Assembly: GCA_024279865.1 (NCBI GenBank)
Contig: JAJRRC010000041.1
Location: forward strand, 1-51,530
Reading direction: 5' to 3'
DNA: 51,530 nucleotides
Source of the DNA: Planctomycetota bacterium
GTDB lineage: Bacteria > Planctomycetota > Phycisphaerae > Phycisphaerales > Phycisphaeraceae
Under the pieces are notes generated by a model. It did not search any database and was not told the DNA's origin. It was given only the letters and a program-made list of their open reading frames with translations. The position numbers and the translations under genes are program-made. How positions within the stretch are numbered: position 1 is the stretch's first letter; each line of letters begins with the position of its first letter. Positions 4,375 through 43,278 of the stretch are shown here, one piece after another.

Positions 4375-4759
4375 ACGCAGGGCGATACACCGCTGTGCAG
4401 CCGGGGGCTTCGCCGACGCCGACGCTTTGAAGCTTTACGGCATCGGGTAACTGCGGGGCAATCGCCTCGGCTAACCACCACGCCACCCGCTCGGCAGTGG
4501 GATTCACCACCAGCTCACCTGTGCTATCAGCGAACGGCTCAACTTCATTGAGGTTTTTGTTGTGGACCGTGCCAAGCAACGCATCAAGCAACGGCTCAAG
4601 CTCATGAAAGTCCATGACCGTTTCCATCGCATCAAGCTGCTGCGACTCAACCACCACCGTCACCGCCCAATTGTGCCCATGGATGGTTTCATAAGAACCA
4701 TCGGGCAAACGCAGCGCATGGGTTGCACAGAAAACACGTTCAATCTGAATTTCATACAT
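4373..4759 (-). CDS. 6-pyruvoyl-tetrahydropterin synthase / QueD family enzyme, PTPS-III-like
   Basis: Product of 128 aa with the T-fold pterin-enzyme pattern. Zinc ligands are the His of CATH (residues 11-14) and the two His of IHGHNW. The catalytic Cys that QueD and PTPS carry before HGH (C-x3-HGH) is absent; instead Glu stands three residues before it (ETIHGH). As I recall, E-x2-HGH marks the PTPS-III group, which releases 6-hydroxymethyl-dihydropterin and replaces FolB in folate synthesis. So folate is at least as likely as queuosine. The start at 4759 has GGAG 6 nt upstream. No queC, queE, folE or folK is nearby. A REP-like element begins 13 bp upstream. Confidence 0.85.
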
Positions 4760-4772
4760 GACAAACTCCAAG

Positions 4773-4798
4773 GACGCGCAAGCTGTTAGCTTGCGGCT
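4773..4798 (+). repeat. REP-like palindromic element, copy 1
   Basis: GACGCGCAAGCTGTTAGCTT then GCGGCT. CGCAAGCT and AGCTTGCG form an 8-bp stem with a 3-nt loop. Orientation A (GACGC end to the left). It pairs with copy 2, oriented oppositely, 60 bp away. Confidence 0.85.
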
Positions 4799-4858
4799 AT
4801 TTTCAAACGATCAACCGAATGATTGCTTAGTTGACCATTATTTTAGACACATGACACC

Positions 4859-4885
4859 AGCCGCAAGCATACTTGCTTGCGCGTC
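4859..4885 (-). repeat. REP-like palindromic element, copy 2
   Basis: AGCCGCAAGCATACTTGCTT then GCGCGTC, the reverse orientation of copy 1. Its GCGTC end is 4 bp from the GC-rich array that starts at 4889. Confidence 0.85.
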
Positions 4886-4888
4886 CCC

Positions 4889-4982
4889 ACTTCCAAAAGG
4901 TTTCCAAGAGGCTTCCGGGGGGTTCCGGGGGGTTTCCGGGGGGGCTTCGGGGGAGCCGAGGGGAAAAATTCCGGGGGGGGGG
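4889..4982. repeat. GC-rich 12-bp array upstream of the Hsp70 gene
   Basis: Irregular repeats of TTCC followed by 5-9 G, becoming purer to the right (GGCTTCCGGGGGGTTCCGGG). It fills the space between REP copy 2 and the Hsp70 start at 5022 and so covers most of that gene's promoter region. Confidence 0.85.
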
Positions 4983-5021
4983 ATTTGGTTTGAACGCCTT
5001 GCTATTCTACACTTTGCCATT

Positions 5022-7001
5022 ATGACTGAAAAAGAGCAAGCGCCCCTCATCGTCGGCATTGACCTGGGAACGACCAATAGCCTTGTCGCCTGGTGCGACC
5101 AAGCAGGCCCTCGCATTTTAGAAAATGCAGACCAAGCCCGTTCACTGCCCAGCGTGGTCCGCTTTGATAGCCAAGGAGAACCTCAGGCCATCGGGCAAGC
5201 GGCCCATGACCATGCAGTGGAATACCCCACAGAAACGGTCTTCAGCGTCAAGCGGCTGATGGGTCGTGGGATGGCTGATGTCCAGTCGGAGTTGGCTTAT
5301 TTGCCTTATGAGGTGGTTGGGGGCGAACAGGACACCGCGCGGGTTCAAATCGGCGAAGCCGTGCTTTCACCCCAGCAGATTAGCGCGATCCTGTTACGCG
5401 AATTAAAAGAACAAGCAGAACAAGCCCTCGGCCAACCGGTTGAAAAAGCAGTGGTCACGGTGCCCGCGTATTTTGATGATGCCCAACGGCAAGCCACCCG
5501 CGATGCCGGCCGTATTGCCGGGCTGGACGTGGTGCGGATTGTCAATGAGCCCACAGCCGCTGCGTTGGCGTATGACCTGGGACGAGCCGAACCCCAGGCA
5601 GACGTTCATCTGAACACCAAGGTCAATCCAGAGGCTTGTACCACCCCCCCCCCGGAAGCCCCCCCGGAAGCCCCCCCGGAAGCCTCCCCGGAAGTGGCAG
5701 ACGCGAAAGCAAGTGTGCTTGCGGCTATTTCCCCAGCCTCCATCATTGCAGTCTTTGACCTTGGCGGCGGCACGTTTGATGTGTCAATCCTTCGCCTCCA
5801 AAAAACCGAACAAGGCACCGTCGATCAAGTCCTCGCCACCGCGGGCGATACCCATCTCGGCGGTGACGACATTGACCGGGCGATTGTTGAATTGATCCAA
5901 AAAGAAATTCAAGAGCAGTTCGGCACAGACATCGCGTTTCCCCCCAGCACCCGACAAGCCTTTCGGCAATTTGCCGAGGCCACCAAAAAACAACTTTCCC
6001 AAGCCACCTCCGCGACCATCGAAGTGGACCTTGGTGAAGACCGTCTGTACCAACGAACACTCACACGTGAGGAATTGCAGACCTTTCTTGATCCATGGAT
6101 TGATCGGGCGATGGTTTGCTGTCGTCAAGCAATCAAGAGTGCCAAACTCACAGCAGACAAAATTGACCGGGTGATTCTTGTCGGCGGGTCCACACGGATT
6201 CCGGCTGTCCGCCAAGCCGTCGCAGAATTGTTTGGAACCGATCCCTACACCGCGTTGAACCCTGACGAGGTGGTGGCATTGGGTGCGGCTGTTCAGGCAT
6301 CCATTCTCGCAGGCGTGAACCGGGACCGACTGTTGCTCGATGTGATTCCGCTGTCCTTGGGTATTGAAACCTTGGGCGGAGCGGTCGCCAAACTCATCAT
6401 GGCCAACAGCACCATCCCAGCCCGAGCGACCGAGCAATTCACCACCCATGCTGACGGCCAGACCAACGTTAAAATTCACGTCCTTCAAGGTGAACGCGAA
6501 CTGGTCAAGGATTGTCGCAGCCTCGGCGAATTTGACCTGCAAGGCATCCCACCCATGCCCGGAGGCTTGCCCAAAATCGAAGTGACTTTCCTCGTCGATG
6601 CCAACGGCGTATTGAACGTCACCGCCATCGAAAGACGATCCGAAAAAGCAGCCCGCGTCCAAATGATCCCCAATCACGGCCTCACCCGCGCCGAAGTGGA
6701 CCACATGGAGGCTCAAAGCCTCAAATACGCCCTTGAAGACATGACCGCTCATCAACTGATTGACCTGAGAAACCAAGCCCGACTGGACATTCGATCCATC
6801 AAACGACAACTCGACAAAGTCGGCGACCAACTACAACCAGAGCAACGACAGGACATTGAGCAAAAAGTAGAAAAAGTTCAAGCCTTCATCGCTCAGGCCA
6901 GTCCCGATGCCAATACTTTTCATGAGGCCATGGATGCCATGGACAAAGCCACCGTTCGCCTTGCTGAGCTGGCGATCAAGCAAACACTGGCAGAGCCCTA
7001 A
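5022..7001 (+). CDS. hscA: Hsp70-family chaperone, HscA-like, carrying a repeat-derived insert
   Basis: Product of 659 aa. The ATPase domain shows GIDLGTTNS (residue 12), [24 protein letters not shown] (245), and [11 protein letters not shown] (about 387); the substrate domain shows [14 protein letters not shown] (about 439) and [15 protein letters not shown]. The latter region, with [15 protein letters not shown], is closer to HscA (the Fe-S assembly chaperone) than to DnaK. No isc or suf gene is adjacent, so a general chaperone role remains possible. Between AYDLG and [10 protein letters not shown], where HscA has under ten residues, lie about 55 residues, including [13 protein letters not shown] from a GC-rich array and [11 protein letters not shown] from a REP element. 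The ATG at 5022 has no clear ribosome binding site; the upstream open frame is repeat DNA. Confidence 0.9.
5641..5695. repeat. GC-rich 12-bp array inside the Hsp70 gene
   Basis: Four near-perfect units of CCCCCCCGGAAG in the sense strand, read in the P-P-E-A frame (residues about 208-225). It is followed 4 bp later by a REP-like element. Confidence 0.95.
5700..5726 (+). repeat. REP-like element, copy 3, inside the Hsp70 coding sequence
   Basis: GACGCGAAAGCAAGTGTGCT then TGCGGCT, orientation A. The stem GCAAG/CTTGC is kept while the left arm has drifted. It is translated without a stop as [10 protein letters not shown]. The GACGC end faces the array. Confidence 0.8.
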
Positions 7002-29476: not shown

Positions 29477-32400
29477 ATGACGAACAGTGAATTAGCCACG
29501 ACTTACGCACCCAAAGAGGTGGAATCTCAGATCACCGACCGCTGGAATGAGGCGGGGGCCTTTGCAGCCTCGCCTGATGCTGCGGGCGAGTCTTATGCGA
29601 TAGTCATTCCCCCGCCGAACGTGACGGCCGCGCTGCACATGGGACATGCCTTGAACAACACGCTTCAGGACATTCTCATTCGCTATCACCGCATGGCAGG
29701 ACGCAATGCGCTTTGGATGCCTGGCACCGACCATGCGGGCATTGCCACGCAAACGGTCGTTGAAAAACGGGTATTTGAAGAAGAAGGCAAACGTCGCACC
29801 GATTTTGAGCGTGATGAATTCGTGGGCAAAATTCAAGCATGGAAAGACCAATACGAAAAACACATCACCGATCAGCTCAAGGCCATGGGCTGTTCTTGTG
29901 ACTGGGATCGACAACGGTTCACCATGGACCCCACTTGCACCAAGGCAGTTCGAGAAGCCTTCTTTCGGCTATTCAAAGATGAACTGATCTACCGTGGCAA
30001 ACGGCTGGTCAACTGGGACCCTGCGACCCAGACCGCTTTGGCAGATGATGAAGTGGAAGCTTGCGATATTGATGGCAGCTTCTGGTACTTGGACTACCCC
30101 GTCTGCGATGAACAAGGCAATCTCACCGGCGAACAGGTGACCGTCGCGACCACACGACCTGAAACCATGCTCGGCGACACGGCTGTGGCAGTGAACCCAA
30201 ACGACCTGCCACACGCCAAATATATCGGGCAATACGTCAAGCTTCCCATCGTCAACCGGATCATCCCAATCGTCGGCGACGATTATGTCGTCACGCCTGA
30301 CCCCAACTCCAGCGACGAAAAAGCAAAATTCGCCAGCGGATTTTTGAAAGTCACCCCCGCCCATGATCCCAATGACTGGGAAATCGGATTGCGTCATCAA
30401 TTGGAAGTTATCAATGTCATGGCCCCCGACGGCTCCATCTCCGACAAGCATGGCTGGAGCGATGTGGGAGACGCGGGTTTTATCTTGGGTCAATCCCGCG
30501 AAAAAGCGAGCAAAGCCATCGTGCAATGGTTCAAAGAAAATGGCCAGCTCGCAGAAGTTCGCCCTTACCGTCACAGCGTGGGACATAGCTATCGCAGCCA
30601 TGTGCCGGTGGAGCCTTACCTTTCAGATCAGTGGTATGTGAAGGTCACCGATCAACGCTTGGCCGGAGCTGCTCTGGGTGCGATGGCCAAAGATCAGCGG
30701 GCTGAGTCGGAGGGCTGTGTCTGGACGGACGACAATCCTTTTGAGCAAGCACCGCAGCAGGGCGATGGAGAATTAACGTTTTATCCGCCTCGTTACGCGA
30801 AGACTTTTCAGATGTGGCATGAGAATTTACGCGACTGGTGCATTAGCCGTCAGTTGTGGTGGGGACATCGGATTCCGGTTTGGACTTCCACGGGGAGGCA
30901 CCTTGAATTGAATTCAGATTTGGCGTGCAGTCAAACATTTGGCGATCAGCAATTTATTTGTCTTAAAACCGATGACGCCGATTTGATGCGTCAGCTTGAA
31001 AAGGCTGGTTTTGTGCAAGATTCTGACGTGTTGGATACTTGGTTCAGCAGCGCGTTGTGGCCGATGTCCACGATGGGTTGGCCCGAGCAGACCGCTGAAT
31101 TAGAAACATGGAACCCGTCGAACACGCTTTGCACAGCCCGTGAGATTATTACGTTGTGGGTGAGCCGCATGGTAATGTTCAATCGTTATTTGCGAGGCTG
31201 CTTGCCGTTCACCGATGTTTTTATTCATGCGATGATTCAAGACGGCCACGGGCAAAAGATGAGTAAATCTTTGGGCAACGGCGTGGACCCGTTTGATATT
31301 ATTCACTCTCATGGCGCTGATGGGATGCGGTTCACGCTTGCGAGTATGACGACTCAGACCCAGGACGTACGCTTGACGGTGGACATGGTTTGCCCGCACA
31401 CGGGAAAAATGTTTACGCCTAAATATGTCGGGGATGGCCGAGGCCACAAGGTGGCCGCTGCGATCCAAGACAGTCCTTTTGCCAAGGGCAAGCAGATGGT
31501 CTCCAGCTACGGCATGGCCACGGGCAAAGCCAAGCCCACCGATGCCATGCCTGTGGCTCGCAACACCAGTGAGAAATTTGATGTCGGTCGTAACTTTGCC
31601 AACAAGCTTTGGAACGCAGTGCGATTTGCACTGTCAAATTTAGAGAAAACCCCCGCCCCCGGAAGCCCCCCCGGAAGCCCCCCCGGAAGTACCCCCGGAA
31701 GTACCCCCGGCATCGCCCCCGGCACTGCCACAGAAGATTCTCTGGGAGTCGCAGATCGTTGGATTCTCTCAAGGCTCACCCAAGTCGCGGCTGCGACGGA
31801 AAAAGCGATTTTGAATTACGAGTTCAAACCTTATGCTGACGGGTTGTACGACTTTATTTGGCGAGAGGTTTGCGATTGGTACATTGAGGCGATCAAGCCC
31901 ACGGTGGCCAACAATCGAACCCAGCGAAAAGTTTTATCGGTGGTGTTGGATGTGACGTTGCGACTATTGCACCCGGCGATGCCTTATATCACCGAAAAAC
32001 TTTGGGAACGCCTCAACGAAGTGGTTCCTGACCGGACGCTTGAAGGCTTTGAATTGCCTGTGCATGAATTACTGGTCAAGACGGCGTGGCCTAAGATTTC
32101 GGATCAATGGGTTGATCCCCAGGCAGAGCAAACTTTTGCACTGATGAATAATCTGGTGACAGCGATTCGGCAGGTGCGAACGTCTTACAAAATTCCACCT
32201 CGCCAAAAGCTCGTCGTGACTGCCAAGGTGTCTGCGTCGTTGCAGGATCAGATTTTGCCTAGTGTGGACGTGTTACAAACCTTGGCGAGCCTTGAAAGTT
32301 TTGCGTTGTCCGAGTCCGGGGTCGCCCCCCAGGGTGCGGCCGTCACGGTGGTCGGTGAGATTGAACTTTATGTTCATGATCTGGTCGACGCTGAGGCTGA

Positions 32401-32592: not shown

Positions 32593-33447
32593 ATGGCACG
32601 TATCAAAGATCAAGCCATCTGTGTTCGTATGCTTGACTGGTCTGAGACCAGCCAGATTGTGGTCCTGCTCACGGCTGAGCATGGATTGGTTCGTGGCCTG
32701 GCCAAAGGGTCCAAACGATTCAGCCCCAGCAGTATCGCCCGATTCAGTGGTGGAATCGAACTACTCACCGGTGGGCAAGTCGTCGGCAACATCAAACCCA
32801 ATGTCGAACTGATGAACATCACCGAATGGGATCTGCAACAACCCTATCGGCATCTGCGTCAAAATCTCAGACTTCATCACCTGAGCATGTACGGGGCAGA
32901 CCTCGTCGCGGCCATGCTCGCAGACCATGACCCCCACAAACGAACCTTTGACGCTTTGACCACCTTCTTAGAAGAACTGTCTCTCCCCCCGGAAGCCCCC
33001 CCGGAAGTTCCCCCGGAAGTTCCAGAGGGAGCCTTGTCCACTAGCCGCACGCTTACAGCGTGCGCGTCTGAAGCATCCGGGGGAACATCCGGGGGGGCTT
33101 CCGGGGGGGGAGCGTTGTTGCGGTTTCAATGGGATATTCTTCAAGACAGCGGCTATCGCCCGAATCTTGATGAAGACATCCTCACCGGCAAGCCGTTGCC
33201 CAAACGTCCGACGTATCACTTTCACCCGCTCCGTGGTGGATTCAGTAGCCAGGCAGCTAGGCAAAGCTGGGGTGTGAGGCAGCAAACCATTGACCTCTTA
33301 AAAGCAGTGGCACGCAAACAACCTTTGGAGGCTTCAGGCATTGATCGGGCCAATCGACTGTTGTGTACTTACATTCGAGCGATTCTGGACCGGGAATTGC
33401 CGACGATGGGTTTTGTGTTAGAAGAAGAAAAAACGCCCGTGAACTAA
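32593..33447 (+). CDS. recO: DNA repair protein RecO with a composite repeat insert
   Basis: Product of 284 aa (usual about 240-250). The N-terminal OB fold reads IKDQAICVRMLDWSETSQIV and LVRGLAKGSKRFSPSSIARFSGG; the helical C-terminal domain resumes at LLRFQWDILQDSGYRPNLDE. RecO loads RecA on SSB-coated DNA with RecR. The zinc Cys motif of some RecO proteins is absent. Residues about 131-173 ([34 protein letters not shown]) are wholly made of array, REP element and inverted array, placed between the two helices after FLEEL. Without them the protein has normal length. The gap of 8 bp to valS suggests one transcript. Confidence 0.93.
   Translation: MARIKDQAICVRMLDWSETSQIVVLLTAEHGLVRGLAKGSKRFSPSSIARFSGGIELLTGGQVVGNIKPNVELMNITEWDLQQPYRHLRQNLRLHHLSMYGADLVAAMLADHDPHKRTFDALTTFLEELSLPPEAPPEVPPEVPEGALSTSRTLTACASEASGGTSGGASGGGALLRFQWDILQDSGYRPNLDEDILTGKPLPKRPTYHFHPLRGGFSSQAARQSWGVRQQTIDLLKAVARKQPLEASGIDRANRLLCTYIRAILDRELPTMGFVLEEEKTPVN
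32983..33111. repeat. Composite element inside recO: array, REP, inverted array
   Basis: Left array 32983-33018 (CCCCCCGGAAGCCCCCCCGG and GGAAGTT units, P-P-E-A frame). REP copy 7 at 33043-33068. Right array 33069-33111 (CATCCGGGGGAACATCCGGG, GGCTTCCGGGGGGG, S-G-G frame). The two arrays are reverse complements of each other, so the whole is a long imperfect palindrome with a stop-free reading frame through it. Confidence 0.95.
33043..33068 (-). repeat. REP-like element, copy 7, inside recO
   Basis: AGCCGCACGCTTACAGCGTG then CGCGTC, orientation B, perfect 7-bp stem. Translated as SRTLTACAS. Identical over its length to copy 5. Confidence 0.92.
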
Positions 33448-33644: not shown

Positions 33645-35777
33645 ATGAAAATTCAGCTTCCTGATGCCAGCGTGAGAGAATATGACCAACCGATGACCCC
33701 TGCCCAAGTGGCGGCCGACATCGGTCCGGGCTTGGCCAAGGCTGCCATCGGCGCCAAAATCAACGGCAACCTCGCGGACCTGCATCAACCCATAACCGAA
33801 GATTGTGAACTGGCTCTGATCACCTCCCCTCGCACGGATAAAAAAGGACGCACCAAGGGCGATCACAATCCCGATGCTTTGTACCTGTTGCGACATTCAT
33901 GTGCCCATGTCATGGCAGAGGCGATTGAGCGGCTTTGGCCTGATACACAATTGGCTTATGGCCCGCCGTTGGAACATGGGTTTTATTATGACTTGGCTTT
34001 GGATACGCCGATCCGTTCGGAAGATTTTGTGAAAATCGAAGCGGAAATGAAAAAAATCATTGAGGCGGATCGACCCTTCACCCGCAGTGAGCTAGATCCC
34101 CAAGCGGGCATGGCCAAGCTTCAGGAAGAAAACAACAAATACAAAATGGATAACGCTCAACGCGCTCTCGACGCAGATGCCAAAACACTGAGCTGGTACA
34201 CCACCGGGGATGCTTCGGGAAGTACTTCCGGGGATGCTGCTGGGGAAACTTCCGGGGGTACTTCCGGGGGTACTTCCGGGGGCGGGGGATGGGAAGACCT
34301 TTGCATGGGGCCCCACTTGCCACGCACGGGTCTCATTGGCGGATTTAAGGTGATGAGCATTGCCCAGTCCCATTGGCATGGCGATCTGGAATCCGATGCC
34401 TTCCAGCGGGTGTATGGGACAGCCTTCTTTTCCCAGGCGGACCTTGAAGACCACCTCGAAAAACTCGAAGAAGCTCGCCAACGCGATCACCGCGTCGTCG
34501 GCAAACGATTGGGCCTGTTTGAAATTGATGAAGCCGTGGGCCAGGGATTGATCCTCTGGAAACCCAACGGCGCGATTGTCCGACAAGAACTCCAAGATTT
34601 CATCGGCGAACACCTCAAGCGACAAGGCTACAGCCAAGTCTTCACCCCGCACATCAGCAAGCTTGATCTGTACCGAACCTCAGGTCACTATCCCTACTAT
34701 GCAGATTCGCAGTTCCCGCCACTGGTGGACCGGGAAGTGATTCAAAAACTGGCTGACGAAGGATGCTCCTGTAGTGACCTTGCCAATCGGCTCGAAAAAG
34801 GTGAAATTGAAGGTTATCTCCTCAAGCCGATGAATTGCCCGATGCACATCAAAATTTTTGATAGTGAAAAACGATCCTATCGCGACCTGCCCATTCGTCT
34901 TGCTGAGTTTGGCACGGTTTATCGCTGGGAACAATCTGGCGAACTCGGAGGCATGACCCGCGTGCGTGGTTTTACCCAGGACGACGCGCATCTGTTTGTC
35001 ACCGAAGACCAATTGGCCCAGGAACTGCAAGGTTGCCTCGAACTGGTCAAGCTGGTTTTCAAAACCCTGGGCATGACCGATTACCGCGTGCGGGTGGGCT
35101 TGCGGGACCCCGACGGCGACAAGTACGTCGGCACAGCGGACCAATGGAACAAAGCAGAGGCTGCCTGTAAAAATGCGGCGGCAAGTTTGGGCGTTCCGTT
35201 TACCCTCGAGCCGAGCGAGGCAGCTTTCTATGGCCCGAAAATTGACTTCGTGGTCCGTGATGTCATCGGCCGTGAATGGCAACTCGGAACCGTCCAGGTG
35301 GACTACCAATTGCCCGAGCGATTTGATCTGGAATATGTCGGATCTGACAATCAGACCCATCGGCCGATCATGATCCATCGTGCGCCGTTTGGCTCGATGG
35401 AGCGTTTTGTCGGCGTGTTGATTGAACATTTCAATGGGGCGTTCCCTTTGTGGCTTAGCCCTGAACAAGTTCGCGTTTTGCCGATCTCTGACAAATTTAT
35501 TGACTATGCTGCGCAGGTCAACGACGCACTTAAAGCCGTCGGCATCCGAACCAAGATCGATGACTCCAATGAACGTGTCAACGCCAAGATCAAGGTTGCC
35601 CAAGAGCTGAAAGTGCCTTATATGCTTGTGGTGGGTGGCCGCGATGCCGCGGGTCAAACGGTGAGTGTGCGTGAAAGGTTTGAGGGTGATTTGGGCGCGA
35701 TGCCGTTGGATGAATTTGTGACACAAGTTGCCCAGGAAATGACCAGTAAGGGTACCACTCGCGTTCAGGTTTCATAA
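33645..35777 (+). CDS. thrS: Threonyl-tRNA synthetase with a repeat-derived insert in the editing domain
   Basis: Product of 710 aa (usual about 640). TGS domain 1-65. The editing domain shows HSCAHVMAEAIERLWPD (zinc/editing His pair) and YYDLAL. Class II core: MNCPMHIKIF, motif 2 TVYRWEQSGELGGMTRVRGF with FTQDDAHLF, motif 3 HRAPFGSMERFVGVLIEH, then the anticodon domain from VRVLPISD. Residues about 187-215 (TSGGTSGGTSGGGG) break the conserved segment that normally runs Y-x-x-G-x-(F/Y)-x-D-L-C-x-GPH: here SWYTTGD, the array, then WEDLCMGPHLP. The insert is therefore beside the editing site. The ribosome binding site is weak (GAGAT). No T-box leader was seen. Confidence 0.97.
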   Translation: MKIQLPDASVREYDQPMTPAQVAADIGPGLAKAAIGAKINGNLADLHQPITEDCELALITSPRTDKKGRTKGDHNPDALYLLRHSCAHVMAEAIERLWPDTQLAYGPPLEHGFYYDLALDTPIRSEDFVKIEAEMKKIIEADRPFTRSELDPQAGMAKLQEENNKYKMDNAQRALDADAKTLSWYTTGDASGSTSGDAAGETSGGTSGGTSGGGGWEDLCMGPHLPRTGLIGGFKVMSIAQSHWHGDLESDAFQRVYGTAFFSQADLEDHLEKLEEARQRDHRVVGKRLGLFEIDEAVGQGLILWKPNGAIVRQELQDFIGEHLKRQGYSQVFTPHISKLDLYRTSGHYPYYADSQFPPLVDREVIQKLADEGCSCSDLANRLEKGEIEGYLLKPMNCPMHIKIFDSEKRSYRDLPIRLAEFGTVYRWEQSGELGGMTRVRGFTQDDAHLFVTEDQLAQELQGCLELVKLVFKTLGMTDYRVRVGLRDPDGDKYVGTADQWNKAEAACKNAAASLGVPFTLEPSEAAFYGPKIDFVVRDVIGREWQLGTVQVDYQLPERFDLEYVGSDNQTHRPIMIHRAPFGSMERFVGVLIEHFNGAFPLWLSPEQVRVLPISDKFIDYAAQVNDALKAVGIRTKIDDSNERVNAKIKVAQELKVPYMLVVGGRDAAGQTVSVRERFEGDLGAMPLDEFVTQVAQEMTSKGTTRVQVS
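34204..34287. repeat. GC-rich array inside thrS
   Basis: Left part decayed (GGGGATGCTTCGGGAAGTAC), right part regular (ACTTCCGGGGGT three times, then GGCGGGGG). In the S-G-G-T frame. Confidence 0.95.
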
Positions 35778-37384: not shown

Positions 37385-38212
37385 TTATTGTACGTCCAGG
37401 ACATATTTCTGGATCACATGTGCAACACCATCGTCATCATTAGAAGGTGCAATGATGTCTGCGTGTTTGTGAATAATCTCCCAGCCGCTCTTCATGGCCA
37501 CACCCAGTCCAGCCCAGCGGATCATACTCACATCATTGGGCGCATCACCAATGGCCATGCAGTTCTCCGGGGCAATGTTGTACTGATTGGCGACATATGT
37601 AAGGGCTTTGGATTTGTCTGCATCTTTGTGGATGTACTGAAGCAAATGGTCGTCAGTGATGGCGGACATCATTTGACCTGCGAATTTAGAGTCGAGAGCT
37701 TTGCGAAGTTTGTCGATGCGTTCGGGCGGCGCTAAAACCAAAAGCTTGGTCACCGGCACATGCAAAAAAGCATCCAAAGGCCCCACAAAGTCCGGGGCAA
37801 ACTGACGAGAAATCTCCGTGGGCAAACTATCATCCACATAATCCGTGTACCACTTGTCCAAAATCTCCAGACTAATCACACACTTCGGATCGGTCTTGCG
37901 AGCAAGCTTGATCATCTTACGCACCATCGCTGAGGCCAACGGCTGATGAAGAACATTTTTATTGGTCTTGGGGTTCACCACCAACGCGCCGTTGTAAGTG
38001 ATCCAATAAGAATCAATCTGTAACGCTTCAGCTAAATAACGCATCCCGCGAGGCGGTCGAGCGGTGGCGATGACGACATGGACGCCAGACTTTTGAACTT
38101 CTCGAATCGTCTGGACCGTGCGGCGGGTGACCTGCTTGTCTTCACGCAACAACGTGCCATCGAGATCAATGGCAATCAACTCAATCTTGCGTTTGGGAAA
38201 AGCGTCTGGCAT
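37385..38212 (-). CDS. HAD-superfamily phosphatase, Cof type
   Basis: Product of 275 aa. HAD motif I DLDGTLLRED (Asp nucleophile, residue about 16), motif II IATARP (about 48), motif III Lys in KSKALTYV (about 199), motif IV GDAPNDVSMIRWAG (about 218). The C2-type cap marks the Cof group, which acts on sugar phosphates, pyridoxal phosphate or flavins. The start is 2 bp after the mutS stop, so the two are cotranscribed. Confidence 0.93.
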   Translation of the reverse strand: MPDAFPKRKIELIAIDLDGTLLREDKQVTRRTVQTIREVQKSGVHVVIATARPPRGMRYLAEALQIDSYWITYNGALVVNPKTNKNVLHQPLASAMVRKMIKLARKTDPKCVISLEILDKWYTDYVDDSLPTEISRQFAPDFVGPLDAFLHVPVTKLLVLAPPERIDKLRKALDSKFAGQMMSAITDDHLLQYIHKDADKSKALTYVANQYNIAPENCMAIGDAPNDVSMIRWAGLGVAMKSGWEIIHKHADIIAPSNDDDGVAHVIQKYVLDVQ

Positions 38213-38214
38213 TG

Positions 38215-40992
38215 TTAAGCGTCCAGTTTATCCTGTAATTGTCTTAAAAAATCAAACGCATCAATCGGCGTCATGTTCAAAAGGTCTGCGTCACGTAACA
38301 ACGCCAACGCAGGATGTGGTAAATACTCGGTAAACAAAGACATCTGTGCCTCGGAGGAGCCGTCCGGCGGAACTGCTGCAAGCAACTTCGCTTTTGCGTC
38401 AGAAGATAAAATACTGGAAGAAACAGAGCCCGCTCCAGAAGTCCCAATGCTGTGGGTCGGATGCTCGGCGAGATCGCCAGAAGCATTTGCAGAGGCGTTT
38501 CCAGGGACGTTACCGGGGACGCTGCCGGGGGCATTTCCGGGGGCGGGGGTGTGGCTGACGACGAGTTGTTGCATCAGGTGGTTGGCGCGGTCGATGACGG
38601 CTTTGGGTAAGCCTGCGATTTTGGCGACATGGGTGCCGAAGCTCCGGTCGGTAGCGCCGGGCACGATGCGATGGAGGAAAACGATTTGTTCTTGCCACTC
38701 GCGCACGGTGACTTTTAAGTTGATCACCTGTTCAAATTGTTCTGCGAGATGGGTGATCTCATGGTAATGCGTTGCAAACAGCGTGCGGCAGCGGCGATTC
38801 GCCAAATGTTCTGCAATCGCCCACGCCAAACTGAGCCCGTCGAGTGTGCTGGTTCCACGTCCGATTTCATCGAGGATGACGAGGCTGCGTTCGGTGGCGT
38901 GGTGGCAGATGTTGGCGGTTTCTGTCATCTCGACCATGAAGGTTGATTGGCCGGTGTGCAGTTCGTCGCTGGCACCGATGCGTGTGAAAATACGGTCACA
39001 CAAACCGATGGTTGCTTCGTCGGCAGGGACGAAGCTTCCTGTGTGCGCCAGTAGGACGATCAACGCGGTTTGCCGAATGTAGGTTGATTTACCAGCCATG
39101 TTCGGGCCGGTGATCAGTGAGAGGGTCGCCTGTTGTCCGAGCTGAACATCGTTGGGGACAAACTGGTCACCTAGCAATTGGTCTAGCACGGGGTGACGGC
39201 CGTTGCGAATGTCTGCCATGGGTTCTTCGACGAGCGTGGGTTTGACGTAGCGATACTTGACGGCCCGGTGGGCGAAGCAGCCCAGTACGTCCAGGTCTGC
39301 GACCCATTGAGCAAACGCATGGAGGTGTTCGAGTTTTTGCTGGGCTTCATGGCAAAGCTGTTCAAACAAAAATTGTTCGCGTGTGTTAGCCCGCTGTTCT
39401 GCTGAAAGCACTTTGCCTTCGTATTCTTTGAGGGGGGGGGTGATGTAGCGTTCAGCATTTTTGAGGGTTTGCTTGCGTGACCAGGCATCGGGCGATTTGT
39501 CACGGTGCATGGCGGTGACTTCAATGTAAAACCCAAAGACTCGGTTATAGCCGACCTTTAAATTCGGAATGCCGGTTTGTTCAGATAGTTCTTTTTGATA
39601 CTGGGCAAGCCAGGTATGACTGTCACGTTGGAGCGACCGGTACTCATCAAGCTGGCTATCATAGCCATCACGAATCAGTCCGCCGTCACGCAAGTGGGCA
39701 GGTGCAGCATCGACGCAAGCCTCGGTGATGGTATACGCCAGAGCGTCCAAGACATCCGCCACAGCAGAAAGTTTGTCATGGTAATCCACAATGCTCGGCC
39801 GTTGGTCCAGTAACTGGGCAAGGGATCTAGCTTTGGCCGCACTTTGTCCCAACGCGGCCAGATCGCGTGGCGAAGCGCGGCCCACCGCGATGCGGCTGGT
39901 GATTCGTTGAATATCAGCAATGGTATCGAGTTCGTCTCGCAATTGATCCAAAAACAAACCATCATCTACCAACACGCCCACAAGCCGTTGGCGTTCTTCA
40001 ATGATCGCTCGGTCACACAATGGATAACAAAGCCAATGGCGAAGCTGACGTTTGCCCATTGCGGTCACACAATTTTGCAGGATCGCCAATAAGCTGCCTT
40101 CGGTCGTCTGGGCTCGCAAGGTGTGTTGCACTTCGAGGCTGCGTAGTGAAACCTGATCGATGACCAGATAACGGCTACGCTCAAAACGCTTGGGGGGTTG
40201 GAGATGAGAAAAACGTCCATCTCCGATACTCGCGCATTGGGTTTCAAGCAAGTAATGCAAAAGACCCGCAGCAGCACCCAAGACCGGGTCTTCTTCTTCA
40301 AGACCAAAACCTTCAAGGGTGGTGACTTCATATTGCTTGCACAACATTTCTACCGCTTGGGGTTGATGAAACTGCCAACCGGGACGCGAGGTCAAAATAC
40401 AACCTGCTGCGTTGGCAAGTTCTTTTATTCTGGAGGGGACGTCATCGGTCGCCGTTTGCACATAGAGCAATTCGGCAGGTCCCAGGCGGACCAGTTCATC
40501 GACGACATCGCCAGCATCAAAGGTGGCAAGAGTGAAACGGCCCGTACTCAGTTCAAGCCACGCGCAGGAGGCTTGGCCGTCGTTGCCGAACACGATGGCC
40601 GCCAATGGGTTTTCACTACCTTCTTCAAGGAGCGCTTCGTCGGTGAGTGTGCCTGGGGTGACGACGCGGGTGACATCGCGTTTGACGATGCCTTTGGCGT
40701 GCTTGGCATCTTCGACCTGATCGCAGACAGCAACGCGGTAGCCTGCTCGGATCATGCGATGCAGGTAGCCGTCGACGGCATGGAAGGGAACCCCGGCCAT
40801 GGGAACGCCTTTGGTGCGTTCGGTGAGGGTAACGCCTAGCACTTTGTGGGCGAGCTTGGCATCTTCATGAAACATTTCATAGAAATCCCCCATTCGAAAG
40901 AACAGCACACAGTCGGGGTGGCGTTCCTTAAAATGATGAAATTGCCTCATGGCAGGCGTTGGATTGTTTGCGTTACGCACCTTGGTGGCCAT
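38215..40992 (-). CDS. mutS: DNA mismatch repair protein MutS with a repeat-derived insert
   Basis: Product of 925 aa (E. coli 853). Mismatch-binding FFRMGDFYEMF (Phe-x-Glu, residue about 30-40); Walker A TGPNMAGKSTYIRQ (about 650); signature GQSTFMVEMTETANI; Walker B ILDEIGRGTSTLDG; then ATHYHEITHL. After TDRSFGTHVAKIAGLPKAVIDRA and LMQQLVVSH, residues about 814-836 (APGNAPGSVPGNVPGN) come from a GC-rich array, leading into a variable region and the C-terminal FLRQLQDKLDA. The array lies between the ATPase and the C-terminal dimerisation segment, outside conserved motifs. No mutL is nearby. Confidence 0.97.
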   Translation of the reverse strand: MATKVRNANNPTPAMRQFHHFKERHPDCVLFFRMGDFYEMFHEDAKLAHKVLGVTLTERTKGVPMAGVPFHAVDGYLHRMIRAGYRVAVCDQVEDAKHAKGIVKRDVTRVVTPGTLTDEALLEEGSENPLAAIVFGNDGQASCAWLELSTGRFTLATFDAGDVVDELVRLGPAELLYVQTATDDVPSRIKELANAAGCILTSRPGWQFHQPQAVEMLCKQYEVTTLEGFGLEEEDPVLGAAAGLLHYLLETQCASIGDGRFSHLQPPKRFERSRYLVIDQVSLRSLEVQHTLRAQTTEGSLLAILQNCVTAMGKRQLRHWLCYPLCDRAIIEERQRLVGVLVDDGLFLDQLRDELDTIADIQRITSRIAVGRASPRDLAALGQSAAKARSLAQLLDQRPSIVDYHDKLSAVADVLDALAYTITEACVDAAPAHLRDGGLIRDGYDSQLDEYRSLQRDSHTWLAQYQKELSEQTGIPNLKVGYNRVFGFYIEVTAMHRDKSPDAWSRKQTLKNAERYITPPLKEYEGKVLSAEQRANTREQFLFEQLCHEAQQKLEHLHAFAQWVADLDVLGCFAHRAVKYRYVKPTLVEEPMADIRNGRHPVLDQLLGDQFVPNDVQLGQQATLSLITGPNMAGKSTYIRQTALIVLLAHTGSFVPADEATIGLCDRIFTRIGASDELHTGQSTFMVEMTETANICHHATERSLVILDEIGRGTSTLDGLSLAWAIAEHLANRRCRTLFATHYHEITHLAEQFEQVINLKVTVREWQEQIVFLHRIVPGATDRSFGTHVAKIAGLPKAVIDRANHLMQQLVVSHTPAPGNAPGSVPGNVPGNASANASGDLAEHPTHSIGTSGAGSVSSSILSSDAKAKLLAAVPPDGSSEAQMSLFTEYLPHPALALLRDADLLNMTPIDAFDFLRQLQDKLDA
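38486..38549. repeat. GC-rich array inside mutS
   Basis: On the plus strand CGTTTCCAGGGACGTTACCG, GGGACGCTGCCG, GGGGCATTTCCGGGGGCGGG. The gene (minus) reads the P-G-N/S-x-P frame. The array is purest at its N-terminal side. Confidence 0.93.
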
Positions 40993-43133: not shown

Positions 43134-43278
43134 CGGGGGCAACCCCATGGTGTAAGGTTTGCCTAGGGCCAGCTTCCGGGGGGTAACCCAATCGCTCTAG
43201 GTTTTCCCAAAGGCCAGCTTCCGGGGGGCAACCCAATCGCTCTAGGTTTTCCCAAAGGCCGGTTTCCGGGGGGGGGGA
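43134..43278. repeat. Long-unit tandem array (about 54 to 58-bp spacing, three copies)
   Basis: CTTCCGGGGGG occurs at about 43173, 43221 and 43265, separated by GTAACCCAATCGCTCTAGGT and TTTCCCAAAGGCC. The second and third units are nearly identical. It is the reverse complement of the unit found at 1-175. It ends 3 bp before the T-run of the candidate RNA. Confidence 0.9.

Follow-up and report, generated by a model that had tools for sequence, protein, structure and literature searches.

A REP hairpin between facing G-rich arrays in the recO gene of a Planctomycetota bacterium looks like a meeting of two dispersed repeat families

The recO gene of this Planctomycetota bacterium lies at positions 32593-33447 on the plus strand of the window, the 51,530-nucleotide stretch of DNA analysed here, and the genome assembly that holds the window comprises 3.42 Mb in 122 contigs. 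The gene encodes 284 residues, with Pfam matches to RecO_N at residues 1-84 and to RecO_C at residues 174-269, and it carries an in-frame insert. The left arm of the insert (32981-33026, plus strand) holds an array of three units of CCCCCGGAAG with the spacers CC and TT, its predicted translation being PPEAPPEVPPEV; read directly, 32985-33023 is CCCCCCGGAAG-CCCCCCCGGAAG-TTCCCCCGGAAG-TTCC. Some 20 nt separate the left array from a REP hairpin (33043-33068, plus strand), which consists of AGCCGCACGC-TTACA-GCGTGCG and a CGTC tag. The right arm (33067-33112, plus strand) carries the units CATCCGGGGG, CATCCGGGGG and CTTCCGGGGG, with the spacers of the left arm in mirrored order and with ASGGTSGGASGG as predicted translation; direct reading of 33073-33110 gives GCATCCGGGGGAACATCCGGGGGGGCTTCCGGGGGGGG, and ATCC replaces TTCC in two of the three right-hand units. 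An earlier note on this DNA had described an array, a REP hairpin and an inverted array within recO, read through without a stop. Direct reading confirms this order, and the recO frame is free of stops across codons 131-173. One correction concerns the right array, two of its units being CATCCGGGGG and only one CTTCCGGGGG.

A repeat search found the two arms to be 46 nt long and 89% complementary. The local arm score of the insert is 31; of 300 pieces of 155 bp drawn at random from the window, nearly all score 5-12. The RNA fold predicted for the insert has an energy of -112 kcal/mol and, relative to 200 dinucleotide shuffles, a z-score of -10. The insert amounts to about 36 extra residues that are absent from 29 relatives; the loop between RecO_N and RecO_C is 44 residues long here and 7-10 residues long in those relatives.

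The REP hairpin and the arrays each belong to a dispersed family. Both were counted by pattern searches at stated mismatches, with loci taken as short stretches. The recO-type REP is a multi-copy palindromic stem-loop within the size range of the REP class (20-40 bp), with 84 copies in the genome at no more than two mismatches and none in the reversed control. A second stem variant is present in 36 copies, again with none in the reversed control. CGTC follows the stem immediately in 61 of the 84 copies, the remainder having mostly CGGG or TGTC. The flanks of these 84 copies differ markedly: CCGGGG units occur within 60 bp on the CGTC side of 24 and on the other side of two (Fisher p = 2e-6). 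The tails on the CGTC side moreover favour one strand orientation, with 39 instances of CCGGGG to four of CCCCGG. Perhaps the array is linked to the REP on one side because REP tails are a source of the unit or a target that it prefers. Most intergenic REP copies sit in a longer element ending in TAGAGCATTTTGCAT and ATGCAAAATGCTCTA. This MITE-like element, which encloses the REP hairpin at several loci of the genome G000 (for example L084, L098 and L088), had no mover that we could identify.

The array unit is still more widespread. CCCCCGGAAG is the most frequent 10-mer of the window, with 33 copies. A search of the genome for the two-unit array pattern gave 115 occurrences, and its reversed control gave none; arrays of at least two units form 66 separate loci. 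Their core is CCCCCGG, the most frequent unit is CCCCCGGAAGYN and the first spacer base is a pyrimidine in all 106 cases in the arrays of the genome. The pattern is present in 22 of 51 genomes of the family, representing 18 of its 33 genera, and in 9 of 392 genomes across the phylum. When a collection of 84,980 genomes was searched with the three-unit pattern, 53 stretches were found, 50 of them from Phycisphaerales or Planctomycetota, and the relatives that share the array are nearly all Phycisphaerales or Phycisphaeraceae. The array is thus a dispersed minisatellite largely confined to Phycisphaerales and, since it is found in many genomes of the lineage, a trait of that lineage rather than an accident of assembly. 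Canonical G-quadruplex motifs (G3+N1-7) are present on the G strand of 54 of the 66 arrays and in 19 of 2000 random pieces; judged by motif, most arrays are capable of forming G-quadruplexes. Tandem repeats of 46 and 45 bp were also noted in the window, at 1-119 and 43135-43273, respectively, with one CCCCCGGAAG unit at each junction, as if a segment had been duplicated between units.

At least 29 of the 66 arrays lie in coding sequence, as judged from codon statistics. Two of them are in the neighbours of recO, and both of these lack any REP. The valS array (31656-31722, plus strand) falls between the catalytic and the anticodon-binding domains, the Pfam matches ending at 642 and starting at 769; the thrS array (34204-34282, minus strand), SGGTSGGTSGGG, immediately precedes the match to the SAD domain of a gene that itself lies on the plus strand. 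In a gene of the DnaK/Hsp70 family (4758-7001, plus strand), array and REP occur together at 5645-5726 on the minus strand, with four units on the CGTC side of a REP at 5700-5726; this stretch is in frame and within the ATPase domain. The true start of the same gene probably lies downstream of a second REP (4859-4885), which a G-rich array follows; the two together span 4859-4953 on the plus strand. Coding arrays use five of the six frames, PGSx or SGGx being the most common readings, and run in both orientations, which argues that they arise at the level of DNA. In long open frames, 43 of 52 distances between adjacent CCGGGG cores are divisible by three; outside such frames this holds for 3 of 25 (p = 3e-9), and values of 7, 8, 10, 11 and 13 are common there. 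The loci in this comparison were not picked for their arrays; some caution is due, as the open frames were called by stop codons, which are themselves influenced by the repeats. The contrast is best read as selection retaining those array copies in genes that preserve the frame.

Facing arrays also occur round loops that hold no REP. Four such array-loop-inverted array hairpins were found in other open frames (L059, L160, L170 and L132), of which L059 resembles a CysJ-type flavoprotein and L160 an SCO1-type protein, these names coming from sequence reading and not from a domain search. In the CysJ-like frame the hairpin (L059, 313-372) is in frame, and its loop is a 9-bp tandem repeat, three copies of CCCCTGACT. 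In rnpB (L158, 1584-2039; contig C68, about 38080-38540), helix P1 is lengthened by facing 12-bp arrays that coincide exactly with both P1 strands, and the order of spacers is identical on the two arms. In the same contig, inverted arrays enclose the gene for tRNA-Leu(UAA) (L157, 1537-1776; about 31236-31475) and are followed by an array of CCCCCGGTT with a 9-bp period. The inverted arrays around both RNA genes are predicted to fold into long stems.

When arms were compared with those of unrelated arrays, the spacers in mirrored order agreed more than expected at recO (random-array frequency 0.04), rnpB (0.01), L065 (0.03) and L167 (0.03); several other inverted pairs did not exceed expectation. 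Values of 0.08 or below were obtained for 5 of 18 inverted neighbours and for 1 of 13 direct neighbours. At recO the match between the arms extends to CAGA/TCTG at their inner end. Such matched arms are suggestive of inverted copying and fall short of proof.

Overall, we consider it somewhat more probable than not that the recO insert is the local meeting of a Phycisphaerales-specific GC-rich minisatellite with a CGTC-tagged REP and its G-rich tail, followed by expansion and inverted copying. The starting points, all of them shown here, are the two families, the one-sided association of the REP, the absence of the insert in relatives, the mirrored spacers and the frame filtering. A REP with a G-rich tail, or alternatively an array, would first have entered a tolerant loop of recO. 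Slippage or unequal exchange, favoured by strands prone to form G-quadruplexes, may then have multiplied the units. Inverted copying of the right array, in the form of template switching on the hairpin, could have given rise to the left one or brought it into agreement with the right. The 36 extra residues, which are probably flexible, would be tolerated by RecO, the insert being close to neutral.

The closest competitor to this sequence of events dispenses with inverted copying: a REP bearing a G-rich tail of its own entered recO, where an array that was already present, or that grew later, faces the opposite way by chance. We regard this as possible, with a distinctly smaller probability than a meeting followed by inverted copying. 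It accords with the restriction of G-rich REP tails to the CGTC side, with the REP-less arrays in valS and thrS on either side and with the tail of the recO REP itself, CGTCTGAAGCATCCGGGGG, which resembles CGTCTGGAGCATCCGGGGGGCATCCGGGG, the tail of the REP copy at C46:39659. Against it speak the spacers, which correspond in mirrored order between the two recO arrays, and the continuation of the match to CAGA/TCTG.

Some points weigh against a local meeting with expansion and inverted copying. The signal from mirrored spacers is modest at each locus and, at rnpB, could be produced by selection for pairing in P1. Moreover, slippage alone cannot place one 10-mer at dozens of unrelated sites. For the seeding of the unit at such loci our working guess is ectopic copying from existing arrays. 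It is rather unlikely, though worth entertaining, that an unrecognised process specific to Phycisphaerales actively seeds CCCCCGGAAGYN at new positions in genes and non-coding RNA genes and copies it in inverted form round hairpins, giving matched stems such as those of rnpB, tRNA-Leu and recO. Templating by a telomerase-like reverse transcriptase was rejected, as a domain search of the two array-richest genomes, this one and G015, found no RVT_1; loss of mismatch repair was likewise set aside, a MutS gene being present in the window at 38551-40959. No SbcD above the curated family cut-off was found in any of the 51 family genomes, compared with 8 of 14 control genomes that have it. A nuclease that destroys hairpins may therefore be missing, and hairpins may survive better. 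Because this lack is family-wide, it does not explain the richness of this particular genome in arrays and is permissive at most.

The earlier note had likened the insert to a small mobile element with long inverted ends. The corresponding explanation, in which the whole composite is a MITE-like transposable element with the arrays as its inverted ends and a transposase acting in trans, now seems improbable. In its favour are the long, inverted, stop-free arms, the presence of the insert in recO and its absence from relatives, and an IS200-like TnpA encoded in the genome; in addition, many intergenic REPs lie within the longer element with the ends TAGAGCATTTTGCAT and ATGCAAAATGCTCTA, so MITE-like elements do exist here. 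The composite is, however, unique. Among 114 REP copies examined for flanking arrays, comprising the 84 close copies and 30 of the second variant, that in recO is the only one with an array to its left and to its right, so that none of the others shows the three-part form. The recO copy consists of hairpin and tag only, without the longer MITE-like ends, and the loops of the other array hairpins are unrelated. No target duplication accompanies the insert: the longest direct repeat at its edges is 4 bp, which is at chance level, and although the insert is missing from the 29 relatives, these are too diverged to define an exact empty site. Nor do related recO genes point to gradual growth of the array, since they have no array at all. 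A mobile composite was rejected in the absence of a second copy and of a target duplication. A RAYT as the mover of the REP was rejected also: the only Y1_Tnp matches in the genome are an IS200-like TnpA of 155 residues and a second copy, cut short at the end of a contig, and no REP-like site is near either gene, so that no REP-flanked RAYT gene was found. The further suggestion that array and REP travel together holds in part. They are linked on the CGTC side, as in the array and REP of the DnaK-family gene, but most arrays have no REP and array hairpins form without one. The recO insert appears to be an uncommon encounter between two families of repeats, not a small transposon.

Similarly improbable is the proposal that the array hairpins are selected structures, either stems in mRNA and non-coding RNA or G-quadruplex regulators, whose function keeps the arms complementary: the inverted arrays lie exactly at helix P1 of RNase P RNA and round tRNA-Leu, where they would give long stems, but P1 is ordinary, short and array-free in 25 relatives, most arrays in genes are unpartnered and the stem has no obvious role in the recO, CysJ-like and SCO1-like frames.

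In-frame repeats in essential genes (recO, valS, thrS and the DnaK-family gene), together with those in P1 of RNase P RNA, show the tolerance of core proteins and RNAs for DNA that is selfish or born of slippage. That units are spaced differently in open frames and in non-coding DNA amounts to a natural experiment in the shaping of repeat growth by selection. If the order-wide seeding of one unit does have a dedicated cause, it would represent a novel route by which short DNA spreads.

The combination of array and REP, the 12-mer family and the rnpB arrays had no match in the literature searched, and a search on tandem repeats in Phycisphaerales yielded a single paper, with a title and abstract that give no hint of these arrays. 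Template-switch mutation at quasipalindromes and palindromes in coding sequence are already known (PMC7202029, PMC8604942, PMC6649704); as far as the accessible parts of these papers describe them, one arm is copied from the other, as proposed here, and this happens within coding sequence too, whereas the arms in the present case are minisatellite arrays and the copying step is inferred. In Beggiatoaceae, going by the accessible part of the report (PMC4679880), one short unit, TAACTGA, similarly forms arrays at more than 100 loci of a single lineage, but those direct repeats are intergenic and AT-rich and, unlike the arrays described here, are not paired in hairpins. Arrays of the G-quadruplex-forming heptamer GGGNATC are dispersed in Xanthomonas and Nostoc genomes, mostly outside genes (Rehm 2015, PMC4692102). 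They share with the present family short G-rich tandem units at many loci per genome, a variable number of units and a G-quadruplex motif; the heptamers are under-represented in coding regions, whereas the units here are mostly 12-mers and are common in frame within genes. The REP finds its counterpart in the CGTC-tagged REPs, including the Rickettsia palindromic elements RPE-4 and RPE-6, which occur in frame in genes, among them genes for DNA repair and tRNA synthetases (Di Nocera 2013, PMC3733652). The likeness extends to the short palindrome, the one-sided CGTC tag, the many copies, the in-frame positions within genes and the fact that no transposase gene is flanked by REPs; what distinguishes the present family is the G-rich arrays on the CGTC side and, at recO, the minisatellite arrays that face each other across the hairpin.
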